Assembly (NCBI GenBank): GCA_028698395.1
Contig: JAQVDG010000003.1
Location: forward strand, 1-21,979
Length of the DNA: 21,979 nucleotides
Direction: 5' to 3'
Source: Weeksellaceae bacterium
Lineage (GTDB): Bacteria; Bacteroidota; Bacteroidia; Flavobacteriales; Weeksellaceae
The notes under the pieces were generated by a model. That model was not told where the DNA came from. It saw only the letters and a list, made by a program, of their open reading frames with translations, and ran no database searches. Within the stretch, counting starts at the first letter, position 1. The number at the start of each line of letters is the position of its first letter. The position numbers and the translations under genes were made by a program. Of this stretch, positions 4,281-21,979 are shown one piece after another.

Positions 4281-5336
4281 TCACCAATTTTCACTATTCA
4301 AAAGATTATAACCTCTGTTTTTATAAAAACTCATAAATTCTTTTGAATTTGTTGCAGGGAATTCAAGTTCAATTTCATCTATAATATTTTTTAAAAGCTT
4401 ATCGCCAATACTTTCTGAATATTTTCCTCTCAATGCTTTTTCATACCATTTTAATAAATCACTTTCAGTAACGATACTTTGAATCTTTGACTTCCAACCT
4501 ATTTGATTAAGTAATGAAAGTATTACTTTTTGTTCAGTGTCTTTACAAACAATTACGATTCTATCTGCAGATACAGAAGATACTATATTTTCAGCAAGTT
4601 CTTCCGTTAAAGAAAGATGTTTGATTTGAATAGCCATTCCAAAATTTGCCCACATATCTAAACCTCTGTCAGCTGCGTTAGTAACTCCAACACGATTGAT
4701 TTTTGCTTTAAGTTTTATAGTATTTTGTTCATTTGAAAGTTGAATGATATTCCTGGCAAAATCTTCAAATTCGTTTAAAATATCTGATTTTTCAGGATTT
4801 ACACTTACTTCTACGGAAACGTCAAGGGCATCAACTAAGGCTGAAAATAAAGCATAAACAACTATTTCATAGATTTTATCTATACTTCTTCTTAAACCAG
4901 GCTCACGCCAAAACAAATCCAAGAATTCCTGAAGTTGAAATGTTGTTTTATCGTTTTCACTACAATAGGAAAGACCTGATGACATTTGGGAAAAACGCTG
5001 TAAAAATTTCCGATAAATATAGGCTTCAACAATCCCATTTTTATTTCGGTTTTCCTTACCTAAAATTTCTAAAACTTGAGGCGGGATGGCATTTTCATTA
5101 AAAATATCATCTTGATACCTTGCAGAAGAAGTAGATGTCCGCCCCAAAAATTGCAAACAAACAATATCTCTCCATTTTTTGGATGAATTTCGATACGTTT
5201 CTAATTCCAAAAGCTGGATATTTTTTTCTATTCTATCCCGGTATAATATTTCTGCGATTTGAATAGGCTTATACAAATGGACTCGTGCTTTTGAAATTAC
5301 TTTATCCAATGCTATTTTGGCTTCTTTAATATCCAT
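4281..5336 (-). CDS. Type II restriction endonuclease, HaeII-like family
   Basis: A 351-aa protein encoded directly downstream of a cytosine-5 DNA methyltransferase, with an 11-nt overlap, the usual layout of a type II R-M pair. The N-terminal segment (ISKARVHLYKPIQIAEILYRDR region, residues 14-35) and overall length match what I recall of the HaeII endonuclease family, whose founding member cuts RGCGCY. A plausible PD-(D/E)XK nuclease core lies at residues 223-240: Asp227 in GLDMWANFG, then QIKH at 237-240, so the usual Glu would be replaced by Gln237 with Lys239 retained. Glu157 in IYEIVVYALF may be the helix acidic residue. Family assignment is from recognition, not a search, and the target site is an inference. 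No truncation is seen. Confidence 0.72.
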   Translation of the reverse strand: MDIKEAKIALDKVISKARVHLYKPIQIAEILYRDRIEKNIQLLELETYRNSSKKWRDIVCLQFLGRTSTSSARYQDDIFNENAIPPQVLEILGKENRNKNGIVEAYIYRKFLQRFSQMSSGLSYCSENDKTTFQLQEFLDLFWREPGLRRSIDKIYEIVVYALFSALVDALDVSVEVSVNPEKSDILNEFEDFARNIIQLSNEQNTIKLKAKINRVGVTNAADRGLDMWANFGMAIQIKHLSLTEELAENIVSSVSADRIVIVCKDTEQKVILSLLNQIGWKSKIQSIVTESDLLKWYEKALRGKYSESIGDKLLKNIIDEIELEFPATNSKEFMSFYKNRGYNLLNSENW

Positions 5337-6303
5337 GTTTGGGCTCTAATAATGTTAATTGTACAGGTTCTTTAATTGCTTGTTTTTTTGATTTTAAGGC
5401 ATTCATCATTTCCTCTGCAATAGCTTTAATTACAGGTACAGAAACAGAATTGCCTGCCACTTTTCTAGCTTGTGAATACGGAATGTTAATTTTAAAAGTG
5501 TCTGGGAAACCTTGTAATCGTAACATTTCTCTGCCTGTTAATCTCCTCACTCCATTAACTACAAGGTAATTATAGCTTCCACCAGCTCGCAAAGCACATG
5601 AATACGGAAGTGCTGAAATATTGCCTCCAATATTTTCATGCCAAACAGATGGGAATGGTGGATTTGGTTTCACTGCATTAAATCGTTTTTGTTTTAATTC
5701 ATCGGATAAAAAATAATTTTGAGGAACATCCTTATCATTTTCTAAAATATCGTTTAGTGGCTTATAATATCCTAATGGTCTTGGGAATTTAAAATGAATT
5801 GGTTCAAGAAAACCAACTATGTATATTCGCTCTCTTTTTTGAGGAAGACCAAAATCAAGAGAATTAAAAACTTTGTGATAAACTGTATAGCCTAATTCAT
5901 TCAATTTTTGCAGAATAACAGCGAAAGTTCGCCCTTCATCATGCGTAGTAAGACGTTTTACATTTTCAAGAAGAAATGCTTTTGGTTTTTTTGCTTTTAG
6001 AATTGCTTCTATATTAAAAAATAAAGTTCCGCGAGTATCTGCGAAACCAAGACCTTTTCCGGCTATACTAAATGGTTGACAAGGGAATCCCGCTAATAAA
6101 ATGTCATGGTCAGGTATGTTCTTTGGTTCAATTAAATTAATATCTCCAAATGGCTTTTCACCAAAATTAGCTTCATACATCATTTGGGCATGCTTATCCC
6201 ATTCGGAGGAAAATACATTCTCACAACCATAAGCCTCAAATCCTAATCTTATTCCTCCGATACCTGCAAAAAGGTCTATTGTTTTAAATTGTTTTTCAAT
6301 CAT
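5326..6303 (-). CDS. DNA (cytosine-5-)-methyltransferase of a type II R-M system
   Basis: Transfers a methyl group from S-adenosylmethionine to C5 of cytosine, protecting host DNA from the partner endonuclease. All key motifs are present in order: I (FAGIGG, residues 12-17), IV (PCQP, 74-77, nucleophile Cys75), VI (ENVKR, 113-117), VIII (QKRERIY, 155-161), a target-recognition region (about 165-250), IX (RRLTGREMLRLQGFP, 253-267) and X (GNSVSVPV, 284-291). At 325 aa it is a normal single-domain enzyme. The ATG at 6303 is the first Met of the frame. The TAA stop lies inside the start of the endonuclease gene, so the nuclease is probably translationally coupled to, and expressed after, the methylase. 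No controller (C) protein gene is present. Confidence 0.96.
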   Translation of the reverse strand: MIEKQFKTIDLFAGIGGIRLGFEAYGCENVFSSEWDKHAQMMYEANFGEKPFGDINLIEPKNIPDHDILLAGFPCQPFSIAGKGLGFADTRGTLFFNIEAILKAKKPKAFLLENVKRLTTHDEGRTFAVILQKLNELGYTVYHKVFNSLDFGLPQKRERIYIVGFLEPIHFKFPRPLGYYKPLNDILENDKDVPQNYFLSDELKQKRFNAVKPNPPFPSVWHENIGGNISALPYSCALRAGGSYNYLVVNGVRRLTGREMLRLQGFPDTFKINIPYSQARKVAGNSVSVPVIKAIAEEMMNALKSKKQAIKEPVQLTLLEPKHGY

Positions 6304-17469: not shown

Positions 17470-17501
17470 AAAAGAATAAGATGATTTACCCTGGTTTTTG
17501 A

Positions 17502-17524
17502 ACTAAAATTTTCCCTATTTTAGT
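17502..17524. promoter_or_regulatory. Inverted repeat upstream of hsdM, possible operator
   Basis: Perfect 8-bp arms (ACTAAAAT at 17502-17509, ATTTTAGT at 17517-17524) with a 7-nt spacer. The right arm overlaps TATTTTAG (17516-17523), one mismatch from the -7 consensus, with a TTTG at 17497-17500 only 15 nt before it. A repressor site over an hsdM promoter is possible but unproven. Confidence 0.35.
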
Positions 17525-17531
17525 GGATTCG

Positions 17532-17554
17532 ATTAAGGATAAGAAATCCTTAAT
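17532..17554 (+). promoter_or_regulatory. Hairpin in the hsdM leader
   Basis: Perfect 9-bp stem (ATTAAGGAT at 17532-17540, ATCCTTAAT at 17546-17554) with a 5-nt loop, 18 nt before the hsdM ATG. Its left side shares a 12-nt sequence (GATTAAGGATAA, 17531-17542) with the opposite strand of the hairpin at the end of the RAYT gene (20605-20616). It could be a leader structure, an operator or a REP-like element. Confidence 0.5.
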
Positions 17555-17572
17555 GTTAAAAAACTTATTTTA

Positions 17573-19132
17573 ATGTCAGAAGAACAAAAAAGAATTTTAG
17601 AGCAACAGCTTTGGAATATTGCCAATACATTGCGTGGGAAAATGAATGCGGATGAATTCCGAGATTATATTTTGGGATTTATTTTTTATAAATATTTGGC
17701 TGAAAAAATGGAAATTTATGCCAATTCTATTTTAGAAAAAGATACTATCCAATTCAAGAACATTCCCGAAGACACTCCCGAAGGACAGGGATATATAGAG
17801 GCGATTAAAGAAGAGTCGTTAGAATATTTAGGATATTTTTTAAAACCATCTGAATTATTTAGCGAAATCGCCAAAAGAGGAAATGGCGATAATAATACTT
17901 TCATTATAGAGGATTTGCAAAAGATTTTGACCAATATCCAATTGAGTACAATGGGAACGGAAAGTGAGGAAGACTTTGATAGCCTATTTGAGGATATGGA
18001 TTTAAACAGTACCAAATTGGGAAGAACAGTTGAAGATAGAAACAAATTAATTGCAAAAGTTCTGTTACATTTGGATGAAATTGATTTTAAACTCGATGAT
18101 ACCGAATTAGATGTTTTAGGAGATGCTTATGAATATTTAATTGGGCAATTTGCCAGCGGAGCGGGAAAAAAAGCCGGTGAATTCTATACGCCTCAGGAAG
18201 TTTCTAAAATTTTAGCAAAAATCGTTACCACAGGAAAAAGCAGATTAAAATCAGTTTATGACCCAACTTGTGGTTCGGGTTCTTTACTATTACGTGTGGC
18301 AAGAGAAGTGAAAGATGTTGCTCTGTTTTATGGTCAGGAAATGAATCGTACGACTTATAATTTGGCACGAATGAACATGATTTTGCACGGTGTTCATTAT
18401 TTGAAATTTGACATCAAGCAAGAAGATACATTGGAACATCCGCAACATTTGGATAATTTACCATTTGAAGCAATCGTAGCAAATCCACCTTTTTCGGCAA
18501 AATGGAGTGCAAATCCCTTATTTTTGAGTGATGACCGTTTTAGTCAATATGGAAAATTAGCTCCGGCAAGCAAAGCCGATTTTGCTTTCGTACAACACAT
18601 GATTCATCATTTATCGGAAAATGGAACTATGGCAATTGTACTGCCACATGGTGTTTTATTTCGTGGAGCAGCAGAGTTGCACATTCGCAAGTTTTTAATT
18701 GAACAGAAAAATTATTTGGATGCCGTGATTGGTTTGCCTGCCAATATTTTTTACGGAACCAGTATTCCGACTTGTATTTTGGTATTCAAAAAATGTAAAG
18801 AAGACGCTGACCATATTTTATTTATCGATGCCAGCAAGGAGTTTGAGAAAGTCAAAAATCAAAATATGTTGCGAGATGAACACATCGCCAAGATTGTGGA
18901 GACTTATCGTAACCGGACATCGATTGAAAAATTTAGTCATTTAGCAACTTTACAAGAAGTAGCCGAAAACGACTATAATCTGAATATTCCAAGATATGTA
19001 GACACTTTTGAGGAAGAGGAAGAAATCGACATTCAGGCGGTAATGCAGGAAATCAAATCGTTGGAAGCGAAACGTGCAGAATTGGATTCTGAAATTGAAG
19101 GGTATTTCAAGGAATTGGGATTAGTCTTTTAA
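17573..19132 (+). CDS. hsdM: Type I restriction-modification system, DNA methyltransferase (M) subunit
   Basis: N6-adenine methyltransferase subunit that forms M2S with HsdS and, with HsdR, the restriction complex. The 519-aa protein has the HsdM N-terminal helical domain (LWNIANTLRGKMNADEFRDYILG, about 12-34), then the hallmark GEFYTPQEVSKIL, the SAM motif DPTCGSGS (230-237), the catalytic motif NPPF (304-307) and a C-terminal coiled segment that docks on HsdS. Full length, no frameshift. The ATG at 17573 gives the typical N-terminus. It is the first gene of the type I locus and is separated from dinD by 17 bp. The leader carries two inverted repeats that may control it. The partner hsdR is not in the window. 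Confidence 0.96.
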   Translation: MSEEQKRILEQQLWNIANTLRGKMNADEFRDYILGFIFYKYLAEKMEIYANSILEKDTIQFKNIPEDTPEGQGYIEAIKEESLEYLGYFLKPSELFSEIAKRGNGDNNTFIIEDLQKILTNIQLSTMGTESEEDFDSLFEDMDLNSTKLGRTVEDRNKLIAKVLLHLDEIDFKLDDTELDVLGDAYEYLIGQFASGAGKKAGEFYTPQEVSKILAKIVTTGKSRLKSVYDPTCGSGSLLLRVAREVKDVALFYGQEMNRTTYNLARMNMILHGVHYLKFDIKQEDTLEHPQHLDNLPFEAIVANPPFSAKWSANPLFLSDDRFSQYGKLAPASKADFAFVQHMIHHLSENGTMAIVLPHGVLFRGAAELHIRKFLIEQKNYLDAVIGLPANIFYGTSIPTCILVFKKCKEDADHILFIDASKEFEKVKNQNMLRDEHIAKIVETYRNRTSIEKFSHLATLQEVAENDYNLNIPRYVDTFEEEEEIDIQAVMQEIKSLEAKRAELDSEIEGYFKELGLVF

Positions 19133-19149
19133 GTTTAAAATTTAAGAAT

Positions 19150-19983
19150 ATGAAATCGGAAGAAATAAAACAATTATTTGAACAGTTTGAAAATGTAGCT
19201 GCAGAATTAGAAGGAGTGGAATGCTGGAGTGCACGTGATTTACAATCTTTATTGGGATACAGTAAATGGGAAAATTTTGAAAAGGTAATCCAAAAAGCAA
19301 AAGATGCCTGTAAAAATGCAGGTGAAGAAGTTGCCTATCATTTTCCTGACGTCAGGAAGATGATAACAAAAGGGAAAGGTGCTAAAGATGAGATAGATGA
19401 CATTTTGTTGACTCGTTATGCGTGTTATCTGGTAGCACAAAACGGAGATAGCCGAAAACAAGAAATTGCTTTTGCACAAAACTATTTTGCAGTACAAACT
19501 CGTAGAGCAGAATTGGTGGAGCAAAGACTTTTAGAATATGAAAGAGTAAAAGCAAGAGAAAAACTGAGCCAAACCGAAAAACAACTTTCGGGTATTTTAT
19601 ATGAACGAGGTGTAGACAGTAAAGGGTTTGGAATTATAAGAAGTAAAGGTGATCAAGCCTTATTTCGACTGAACACGCAAATGCTCAAAAAGAAAATGGG
19701 TGTTCCCGATAGCAGACCTGTTGCTGATTTTCTTCCAACAATCAGTATTAAAGCCAAAGATTTGGCAGCTGAAATGACTGGGCTTAATGTACAAAGTAAA
19801 GATTTAAAAGGTCAAAACAAAATAGAAAAAGAGCATGTTGATAATAATCAAGCAGTTCGGGATATGCTTACCAAACGAGGGATTGTACCCGAAAATCTAC
19901 CTCCTGCAGAAGATGTCAAAAAACTACAACGTAAGTTGGACAGTGATGAGAAAAAATTACTGAAAGGAAAAAAGAAACCCTAA
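19150..19983 (+). CDS. dinD: DNA damage-inducible protein D (DinD) family
   Basis: A 277-aa protein of the DinD family; E. coli DinD is LexA-controlled and inhibits RecA filaments. The N-terminal part (about 20-115) is a BRO-N-like domain (WSARDLQSLLGYSKWENF, then DDILLTRYACYLVAQNGD), followed by the family helix (YFAVQTRRAEL, LLEYERVKAREKLSQTEK) and a charged, lysine-rich C-terminus (GIVPENLPPAEDVKKLQRK). It lies 17 bp after hsdM, inside the type I locus, as I have seen in other hsd loci. Its role there is not established; control of restriction during DNA damage is an inference. No clear SOS box was found just upstream, so it probably follows hsdM transcription. Confidence 0.88.
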   Translation: MKSEEIKQLFEQFENVAAELEGVECWSARDLQSLLGYSKWENFEKVIQKAKDACKNAGEEVAYHFPDVRKMITKGKGAKDEIDDILLTRYACYLVAQNGDSRKQEIAFAQNYFAVQTRRAELVEQRLLEYERVKAREKLSQTEKQLSGILYERGVDSKGFGIIRSKGDQALFRLNTQMLKKKMGVPDSRPVADFLPTISIKAKDLAAEMTGLNVQSKDLKGQNKIEKEHVDNNQAVRDMLTKRGIVPENLPPAEDVKKLQRKLDSDEKKLLKGKKKP

Positions 19984-20016
19984 ATATTTTTCGACAACGA
20001 AAATTAAACAGAAGTA

Positions 20017-20601
20017 ATGTCCGATAAATTCCAAAATAAATACCGTATTCCGTCTGCACGATTGCAGGGGTATGATTATGGGCAAAATGGTGCGTATTTC
20101 ATCACGATATGTACCCAAAATCGTGTACATTTTTTTGGAAAAATTGTCAATAATGAAATGCAATTAAACGAAATCGGACAATTAGCAGAAAAATTTTGGT
20201 TGGAAATTCCTAATCATTTTCCGTTTGTGGGATTGGGAAATTTTGTGATAATGCCTAATCACGTTCACGGAATTTTGATTATTGATAAAATAAATCATGT
20301 TGATACCGATACAACCGTTCCCGTATCCGTAGAGACGTTGCATTGCAACGTCTCTACCACCACCGATACCGAAAAAAACGAACAAATGTCAAAAATATCC
20401 CCAAAATCGGGAACGATTTCTACCATTATTCGTTCGTATAAATCAGTTGTATCAAAATTTGCACGACAAATCCACGCAGATTTTGGTTGGCAATCCCGAT
20501 TTCACGACCATATTATTCGTAATTCGGAATCGTTTGAACGCATACAAACCTATATTGAAAGTAACCCGAAAAATTGGGATAAGGATAAATTTCATAATTG
20601 A
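20017..20601 (+). mobile_element. REP-associated tyrosine transposase (RAYT, IS200-like Y1 family) gene
   Basis: A 194-aa single-strand transposase of the HUH/Y1 class. It opens with a RIPS-LQGYDYGQNGAYFITICTQNR motif; the metal-binding HUH is H82-V-H84 in MPNHVHGI; the C-terminal helix has GWQSRFHDHIIR (157-168) and TYIESNPKNW (178-187), with Tyr179 the likely nucleophile by family comparison. RAYTs are single-copy domesticated transposases linked to REP palindromes. Here residues 105-114 (VETLHCNVST) are encoded by a perfect palindrome at 20329-20357, in a variable linker. The stop codon sits inside a long hairpin (20573-20620). It lies between dinD and hsdS on the same strand, so it may have landed in the hsd operon and separated hsdS from hsdM. 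The gene appears intact. Confidence 0.88.
20329..20357. repeat. Perfect 29-nt palindrome inside the RAYT coding sequence
   Basis: Two 14-nt arms (GTAGAGACGTTGCA and its exact complement) flank one central T at 20343. The reading frame passes through, starting exactly at codon 105. GTAGAGACG...CGTCTCTAC palindromes are, to my recollection, common dispersed repeats in Bacteroidota and Cyanobacteria genomes; no second copy is in this window. Confidence 0.9.
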
Positions 20602-20620
20602 AAATTATCCTTAATCCAAT
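20573..20620. repeat. Long imperfect hairpin overlapping the end of the RAYT gene
   Basis: Arms of 21 nt (20573-20593 and 20600-20620) with a 6-nt loop: 18 Watson-Crick pairs, one G-T pair and two mismatches. It contains the RAYT TGA stop (20599-20601). It may be a REP-like end recognised by the transposase, or a transcript-stabilising or attenuating structure before hsdS. It lacks a T tract, so it is not a typical terminator. Confidence 0.75.
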
Positions 20621-20667
20621 CAGCAGAAATAATTTGACATTTAAGATGATGGATAGAGATTAAAGGA

Positions 20668-21814
20668 ATGGATTGTTCCAAACACATCACAAAAAATCCC
20701 CAAACTACGATTTCCCGAGTTTGCAGGAGATTGGGAAGCGAAGAAGTTGGGAAATATTTCTCCTCTTCAAAGAGGTTTTGATTTACCAAAACAAAGTATT
20801 GTAGCGGGAAATATTCCCATAGTTTACAGCAATGGAATTTTAAAATTTCATAATCAATCCAAAAGCAAAGCTCCCGGATTAGTAACAGGACGTTCGGGAA
20901 CAATTGGAAAATTTACTTTCATTGAAAATGGTGAGTATTGGCCACATAATACATCTTTATGGGTTACAGATTTTTGTGGCAATATTCCAAAATTTATTTA
21001 TTATCTATATCAAACTATAAATATTGAACAATTTTCAACAGGTTCAGGAGTTCCAACATTAAACAGAAACGATGTTCATAGAAAAAAATGTTCTATACCA
21101 AATATTGAAGAACAAAAAAAGATATCTTCTTTTTTAAGTTTACTTGATGAAAAACTTCAAACCCAAAGGAAAATAATTGAAAGTTTAGAGTCCTTAATGA
21201 AAGGTATGAGCCAAAAACTTTTTACTCAAAAATTACGTTTTAAAGAATTTACCGATGAATGGAAGAGAAAGACATTGGGAGAAGTTTTGATAAAAAATTC
21301 CAACAAGAATAAAAACCAAAAATATTCTACGGTTCAAAGTGTTAGTAACAAATATGGGTTTATTAATCAGGAAGAAATGTTTGAAGACAGAAGAGTTGCA
21401 AGTAACAATACTTCAAACTATTATATAATTGAAAAAGGATTTTTTGCATATAATCCCTCTCGTATCAATGTGGGTTCATTGGCTTATAAAAAAGATGAAG
21501 AAATTTCTGTAATAAGCCCATTGTATATTAGTTTTAAAGCTAATAATATTTTTTTGAAAGATGAATTTCTATGGTATTGGTTTAAAACTATTGAGTTTAT
21601 ACGACAAATGAACAATTCTTTTGAGGGAAGTGTCAGAAATACTTTAAGTTATGAAAGTTTAATAAAAATGAATATTTCTATTCCTTGCAAAGAAGAACAA
21701 ACCAAAATCGCAGGGTTTCTTTCTAAAATTTCCGATAAAATCGAAACTGAAAAGAAAATATTGGAGTTATTAGAACAACAGAAAAAGTATTTTCTGCAAA
21801 ATCTTTTTATATAA
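20668..21814 (+). CDS. hsdS: Type I restriction-modification system, specificity (S) subunit, with a one-base frame discrepancy at its N-terminus
   Basis: Determines the DNA target of the type I complex. Two target-recognition domains alternate with conserved helices: the opening KIPKLRFPEFAGDWEAKKLG (nt about 20693-20749), TRD1, CR1 (EEQKKISSFLSLLDEKLQTQ, about 21104-21163), a second repeat opening (QKLRFKEFTDEWKRKTLGEV), TRD2, and CR2 (KEEQTKIAGFLSKISDKIE) to LFI. The main frame is open from 20657 but has no ATG before the conserved start; the first usual alternative codon, TTG at 20747, would cut off the conserved opening. An ATG at 20668 lies in another frame and would join the main frame if one base were absent between 20671 and 20692, which includes an A6 run (20691-20696). 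The gene is therefore either phase-off, mutated, started at a non-ATG codon, or wrongly sequenced. A second hsdS faces it from the right. Confidence 0.85.
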
Positions 21815-21815
21815 A
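21806..21815. repeat. 10-bp palindrome at the junction of the two convergent hsdS genes
   Basis: TTTATATAAA is self-complementary and holds both stop codons: TAA of the plus-strand hsdS (21812-21814) and TAA of the minus-strand hsdS (21809-21807). The two coding regions overlap by 8 nt here. Confidence 0.7.
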
Positions 21816-21979
21816 CATATTGGCTAAAAAGTATTTTTTTTGTTCTTCCAATTTTTGTAAAATCTGATTTTCAATATCAATTTTTGAGTCGATTGAAGAT
21901 AAGAAGTTGGCTATTTTTTGTTGTTCATTTTCTGCTAAACTAATTTCAATTTTCAATCTTTTTAAATCTTTCAACTGAA
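21807..21979 (-). CDS. hsdS: Second type I specificity subunit, inverted, C-terminal 56 codons only
   Basis: Reading the minus strand from the window edge gives 56 residues and a stop at 21807. They match the C-terminal conserved helix of HsdS: ISLAENEQQKIANFLSSIDSKI followed by LEEQKKYFLANMFI. The last 30 residues line up without gaps with those of the plus-strand hsdS (EQQKKYFLQNLFI), with clear similarity but not identity in DNA. The rest of the gene lies beyond the window. It is too short to have been called automatically. The head-on arrangement with the neighbouring hsdS suggests an alternative specificity gene or partial gene of an invertible locus. Confidence 0.85.
   Translation of the reverse strand, partial: QLKDLKRLKIEISLAENEQQKIANFLSSIDSKIDIENQILQKLEEQKKYFLANMFI

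Follow-up and report, generated by a model that had tools for sequence, protein, structure and literature searches.

A probable recombinase-driven inverting type I restriction-modification locus at the end of a Weeksellaceae contig

We analysed 21,979 nucleotides from a Weeksellaceae bacterium (assembly GCA_028698395.1, contig JAQVDG010000003.1, positions 1 to 21,979), referred to here as the window, at whose right-hand end two hsdS genes meet head-on. The PorQ protein of the window is 99% identical to a single metagenomic cluster, and its nearest matches of named source, at 71-76%, are from MAGs of Weeksellaceae and Moheibacter, in keeping with an uncultured Weeksellaceae. Our analysis indicated, with a probability of roughly 85%, that this is the hsdM-proximal end of a recombinase-driven inverting type I restriction-modification locus. 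The order of such a locus would be hsdM, accessory genes, hsdS on the plus strand and an inverted hsdS on the minus strand, followed beyond the window by a dedicated tyrosine recombinase gene and hsdR, both on the plus strand. The recombinase would use short matching sites, located in the conserved opening and central segments of both hsdS genes, and would flip the stretch that separates them. The inversion would put different target-recognition domains behind hsdM, and the changed domains would in turn change the sequence that is methylated and restricted.

The window contains hsdM (17573..19132, plus strand), encoding a methyltransferase subunit of 519 aa with N6_Mtase and HsdM_N domains (TIGR00497, 474.2 bits, cutoff 242.75), and an open hsdS frame (20657..21814, plus strand) that is complete apart from its start and whose product matches Methylase_S (PF01420) in two stretches with 97.8 bits. 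The presence of both genes in one locus identifies a type I restriction-modification system; hsdR is not within the window. The minus strand from 21977 to 21807 encodes the C-terminal end of a second, inverted HsdS (QLKDLK...NMFI, then the stop), which runs off the window. Its C-terminal 57 codons are visible, so that the opposite-strand hsdS of an inverting type I locus is present, and 29 of 53 residues are identical to the C-terminus of the plus-strand HsdS (E = 5e-14). The two genes end at 21814 and 21807, and their stop codons overlap by 8 bp inside a perfect 10-bp palindrome, TTTATATAAA (21806..21815, no strand). An earlier note on this DNA had described the head-on genes, the overlapping stops, the homologous C-terminal ends and similar but non-identical arms, and our analysis agreed on each; the visible 60-base arms match at 40 of 60 positions. 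The overlap is not a chance feature, because the same 8-bp overlap was found in 16 of 47 head-on relatives.

These relatives were collected by HsdM. The best 80 of 557 loci were taken from the HsdM search. In 320 genomes of one family, HsdM matched at 52 places in 50 genomes; 30 of these regions were added, nine were already in the set of 80 and 13 were left out. Two duplicates among the resulting 110 loci were removed, leaving 108 hsdM loci. Of these, 47 had head-on hsdS genes, 43 had hsdS on one strand only, and 18 were undetermined, as their contigs end early or no hsdS was scored. The loci are not independent, since L008 and L134 are near copies, as are L123, L132 and L149. The HsdM of the window fell within a clade of 60 leaves (support 0.998), which comprised 45 head-on loci, 13 undetermined loci, L003 and the window. 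L003 (11592-12676) is a decayed locus without an inverted copy, in which what is left of hsdS is a short fragment that leads into the recombinase gene.

A nearby recombinase, for which the earlier note had advised a search, was indeed found in the relatives. Scoring with a profile built from seven locus recombinases revealed a tyrosine recombinase gene in 41 of the 47 head-on loci, located on the plus strand and adjoining the inverted hsdS at its 5′ end. In the other six (L007, L021, L022, L070, L144 and L149), the contigs stop at or just past the inverted hsdS. The recombinase was present in only one of the 43 single-hsdS loci, namely L003, whose hsdS is a fragment. The recombinase frame of these 41 loci opens close to the end of the inverted hsdS frame, at most 87 bp before it and at most 98 bp after it. 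In all 41, an hsdR-like frame lies 3′ of the recombinase, likewise on the plus strand; in two loci, L001 and L006, this frame was confirmed to encode type I R-subunit domains. PF00589 together with PF14659 was detected in the four examples scanned. The enzymes were not accepted as housekeeping XerC/XerD, since four locus recombinases scored 70-86 bits against cutoffs of 335 and 330. As the HsdM of the window lies in the head-on clade, the same recombinase and hsdR would be expected beyond 21979.

The proposed crossover site is ACCCAAAnnAAAATAATT, which occurs in frame in the plus-strand hsdS of the window (21161..21178) and whose 20-bp form (21161-21180) is present without mismatch, with 0.03 matches expected at up to two mismatches. 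This central segment of hsdS encodes TQxKII. At 83 instances of TQxKI[IL] in the head-on loci, the codons CAA, AAA and ATA were used in 83/83 and ACC in 75/83. Fully canonical instances numbered 67 of 83, against about 1.2% predicted from the codon usage of hsdM and hsdR. As controls, none of 256 invariant HsdM residues (47 loci) and none of 137 invariant recombinase residues (41 loci) was codon-invariant, and only 20 and 13 of them, respectively, reached 90%. The codons of the site are frozen far beyond the need of the protein, which shows a constraint at the DNA level.

The distribution of the site follows that of the head-on genes. We found 67 copies of ACCCAAAnnAAAATAATT across the 47 head-on loci, all inside hsdS; 41 loci carry it, 25 of them on both strands. 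There was none in the 43 single-hsdS loci, and there were two copies in the 18 undetermined loci. The 20-bp form occurred 51 times in 31 of the 320 genomes of the family, while the reversed control pattern did not occur, and in 17 of the 31 genomes a plus and a minus copy lie on one contig. Six of the 31 had no HsdM match; 11 of their 12 site matches were inspected, and all 11 were in hsdS frames. In seven stretches from these six genomes, a more distant HsdM was found in four and the recombinase was scored in four. Among the stretches without it, L151 and L155 stop short; in L156 its place is taken by a Fic-family gene, after which the contig ends. Tyrosine recombinases need a matching overlap for strand exchange. 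If this holds here, agreement of the two spacer letters between the plus and the minus site is to be expected, and they agreed in 33 of the 36 loci where each strand carries a near-canonical site (10,000 shufflings: mean 12.5, maximum 22). Judged by record titles, the site-bearing loci come from several groups of Bacteroidota, which we take to be the classes Flavobacteriia, Sphingobacteriia, Chitinophagia and Cytophagia. The window, with ACCCAAAnnAAAATAATT in frame and its HsdM in the clade, belongs to this site-bearing group of head-on hsdS loci.

Signs of rearrangement were found among the relatives, in support of the invertible locus that the earlier note had suspected. REARRANGEMENT was seen between relatives with identical hsdM, in two sets of loci. 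L008 and L134 are identical in hsdM and in the recombinase gene over the aligned parts, and a single hsdM sequence is shared by L123, L132 and L149. In both sets the hsdS arrays are built from common blocks of 97-100% identity, whose order and orientation differ. At the central site, the left flank of the L134 plus copy equals the L008 plus copy (70/70) and its right flank the L008 minus copy (70/70). Likewise, the L149 minus copy equals the L123 minus copy on the left (70/70) and the L123 plus copy on the right (70/70). The crossover of these recombinant junctions falls in a shared block of 23 bp at the central site. The opposite junctions are not simple reciprocals, as the right flank of the L134 minus copy matches the L008 plus copy at 48/70 and that of the L149 plus copy matches the L123 minus copy at 50/70. 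Simple reciprocal exchange was therefore rejected for both sets; these arrays contain extra half genes and have undergone more than one rearrangement. Since separate genomes were compared, the time scale and the enzyme of the rearrangement are inferred. Arrays of four, in which two full hsdS genes enclose two half genes that lie back to back, were observed in L001, L007, L008, L132 and L149, an arrangement able to store more than two specificities per half.

The earlier note had also placed any crossover repeats in the conserved opening or the CR1 segment, and the relatives are in line with this. The longest exact inverted repeat within a locus had a median of 26 bp and reached at least 20 bp in 37 of the 47 head-on loci. 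Its start lay in the opening in 24 of these 37 and, in the other 13, in the central segment that follows the first target-recognition domain. Among 2162 cross-locus pairings the median was 15 bp and 24.9% reached 20 bp, to which the near copies among the loci contributed. The opening segment of the window (IPKLRFPEF...KKLG, 20696..20752, plus strand) corresponds to the zone of the 5′ repeat in relatives. In L146, an exact repeat of 503 bp between the plus and minus hsdS spans the opening, the first target-recognition domain and some of the central segment, which looks as though one domain had been copied onto the other gene. The stop palindrome TTTATATAAA was considered as a crossover point and dropped, because the longest repeats in relatives start elsewhere; its folding as single-stranded DNA is not unusual (z 0.69). 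Within positions 17500-21979 of the window, 36 inverted pairs were found. The longest of the 25 listed, at up to 30 nt, are imperfect (73-86% complementary), and the longest listed without mismatch, a pair of 15 nt, joins hsdM with hsdS; none was accepted as a crossover repeat.

Several observations weigh against an inverting locus of this kind. The canonical site is missing from six head-on loci (L028, L031, L080, L138, L144 and L147), and in 10 of the 47 no exact repeat is as long as 20 bp. When 395 genomes from across the phylum were scanned with the 18-bp pattern, 14 of them had matches, 18 in total against 10 for the reversed control, so single matches there mean little and, at a level so near the control, the site is not common across the phylum. 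The body of the partner gene, the repeats and the recombinase of the window's own locus would lie unseen past its end. We infer that this part of the locus has the same components as in the relatives, that the recombinase acts at the site with a change of methylation, and that inversion takes place in the organism of the window itself. Finally, the plus-strand hsdS of the window is the sole one of 44 scored plus copies without any start codon before the opening, and it may not be translated at present.

This last point had been overlooked in the earlier note, which put the start at 20668, where the ATG proved to be in another frame than HsdS. There is no ATG, GTG or TTG in the HsdS frame from 20657 to the opening IPKLRFPEF (from 20696), and the first candidate is a TTG at 20747, 3′ of this motif. 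Of the 44 plus copies, which include the window and one inner copy, 40 have an ATG before the opening and three a GTG or TTG. Of 41 minus copies scored, 32 have no start there, six have an ATG and three a GTG or TTG. The plus copy of the window therefore looks like a start-less cassette sitting in the expressed position. It is also possible, if on the doubtful side, that this is a crippled copy within an invertible family, where the hsdS leader and start codon were lost through a transposase-like insertion or decay of another kind, and no full-length HsdS is now made from the plus position; this would be compatible with an inverting locus. A transposase-like gene does end 56 bp 5′ of the hsdS frame. 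Moreover, the late start recurs in P0122, a protein of 355 aa from other samples that is near-identical to the HsdS of the window, and this makes a one-off error in the window sequence less likely. However, P0122 is known as a protein only, and an unusual start or an upstream sequence error is possible. The remaining frame is also intact across 385 codons with its conserved segments kept, which argues against decay.

We consider it very unlikely that the two genes form a static tandem, diverged and placed head-on by chance or for regulation, with no exchange of parts. The modest identity of the visible arms fits such a tandem, as does the fact that the best 120 of 6264 protein matches include no chimeric (half-identical) HsdS of the window's species, which also counts against inversion. 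But the clade, the site, the association with the recombinase and the rearranged relatives all argue for exchange. Inversion through general homologous recombination between long repeats, with the recombinase as a bystander, is improbable too. Exact repeats of considerable length do exist, such as those of 503 bp in L146 and 67 bp in L014, and some pneumococcal hsdS inversions are independent of PsrA (PMC7096588). However, the recombinase and the head-on hsdS genes co-occur, and a site-specific enzyme would account for a site whose codons are frozen and whose spacer letters match. The recombinant junctions, moreover, fall in the 23-bp block, and 23 bp is short for RecA.

Returning to the recombinase-driven locus, we incline to a wider interpretation, which is offered as a whole and with more reserve. 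Across several Bacteroidota classes, a head-on hsdS pair would travel together with a tyrosine recombinase of one family, the two forming a module that works with HsdM proteins of unlike families. Its crossover site would be an in-frame sequence of 18-23 bp containing ACCCAAAnnAAAATAATT, with letters fixed at the cost of codon choice and two spacer letters that must match. The window would hold one such module, whose start an adjoining mobile element may have switched off.

Between hsdM and hsdS, the window contains a dinD-like gene (19150..19983, plus strand; NF008573, 350 bits, cutoff 242; Bro-N) and, directly 5′ of hsdS, a gene like that of a REP-associated tyrosine transposase (20017..20601, plus strand). 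The latter scored 53 bits with NF047646, below the cutoff of 80, and had no Pfam match at 0.001. An imperfect inverted repeat of 27 nt (81%; 17516-17542 / 20605-20631) brackets the region from before hsdM to just past the transposase-like gene, at whose end there is a 22-nt hairpin (86%; 20573-20620). Both are possibly marks of a mobile element. Relatives of the transposase-like gene recur in type I loci of Bacteroidota (L006, L023, L024, L026, L033, L049, L050 and L052), in positions that vary among hsdM, hsdS and hsdR. The accessory slot, between hsdM and hsdS or 3′ of hsdS, is variable as well; it holds dinD-like genes, a RhuM-family gene in L001 (11580-12584) or a Fic-family gene in L156 (8244-9146), and L027 is a further example. 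Promoter-like sites in the window were near the shuffled level (14 vs 10.3) and terminator-like sites were few (3 vs 0.9); neither was used. Elsewhere in the window (4281-6303, minus strand), a HaeII-type endonuclease gene (PF09554, 544.5 bits) adjoins a C5-cytosine methyltransferase gene (PF00145, 320.3 bits), a second restriction-modification system.

Inverting type I systems produce several methylation patterns in one clone, with consequences for phage resistance, for DNA uptake and possibly for gene regulation. Given a short site as a sequence mark, such loci are readily located in assembled genomes, and the site may help explain contigs that end inside hsdS, as the window does. It also gives a defined recombinase-site pair for experiments in environmental Flavobacteriia. 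The type of switch is already known, and the window is an additional inverting type I locus. The shared crossover site looks newly recognised: we found no description of it in Bacteroidota in the open-access literature searched, a scope outside which most subscription papers fall, and its letters were not found in the text of PMC4948785, where, as far as that search goes, the repeat of the locus described is not printed either.

In one survey, 875 of 22,107 hsdS genes have a repeat in a second hsdS (PMC7394358), and another reported signs of inversion in 13 bacterial species or groups (PMC5903667). PsrA is a studied tyrosine recombinase that inverts between hsdS copies, at the pneumococcal cod / SpnIII locus (PMC7096588, PMC4948785). 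There, one repeat (IR1) is only 15 bp, IR1-like sequences lie within longer repeats, and one expressed hsdS is accompanied by further donor copies. However, cod / SpnIII has three hsdS genes and three repeat pairs, its gene order and phylum differ, and IR1 was compared by description only. Streptococcus suis, Actinobacillus pleuropneumoniae and Mannheimia haemolytica, of other phyla, also have inverting type I loci, likened here by description, and a recombinase/integrase gene is present at the latter two (PMC7394358). The same paper describes Porphyromonas gingivalis and Tannerella forsythia, of the same phylum as the window, with two variable hsdS genes on opposite strands and inverted repeats of at least 20 bp, as in most of the head-on relatives studied here. 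Their hsdM-proximal hsdS has a start codon and the inverted one is silent, without ATG. The likeness is one of description, not of sequence, and the plus copy of the window differs in having no start itself; in the relatives, however, the start-codon pattern of the plus and minus copies matches this silent-copy arrangement.
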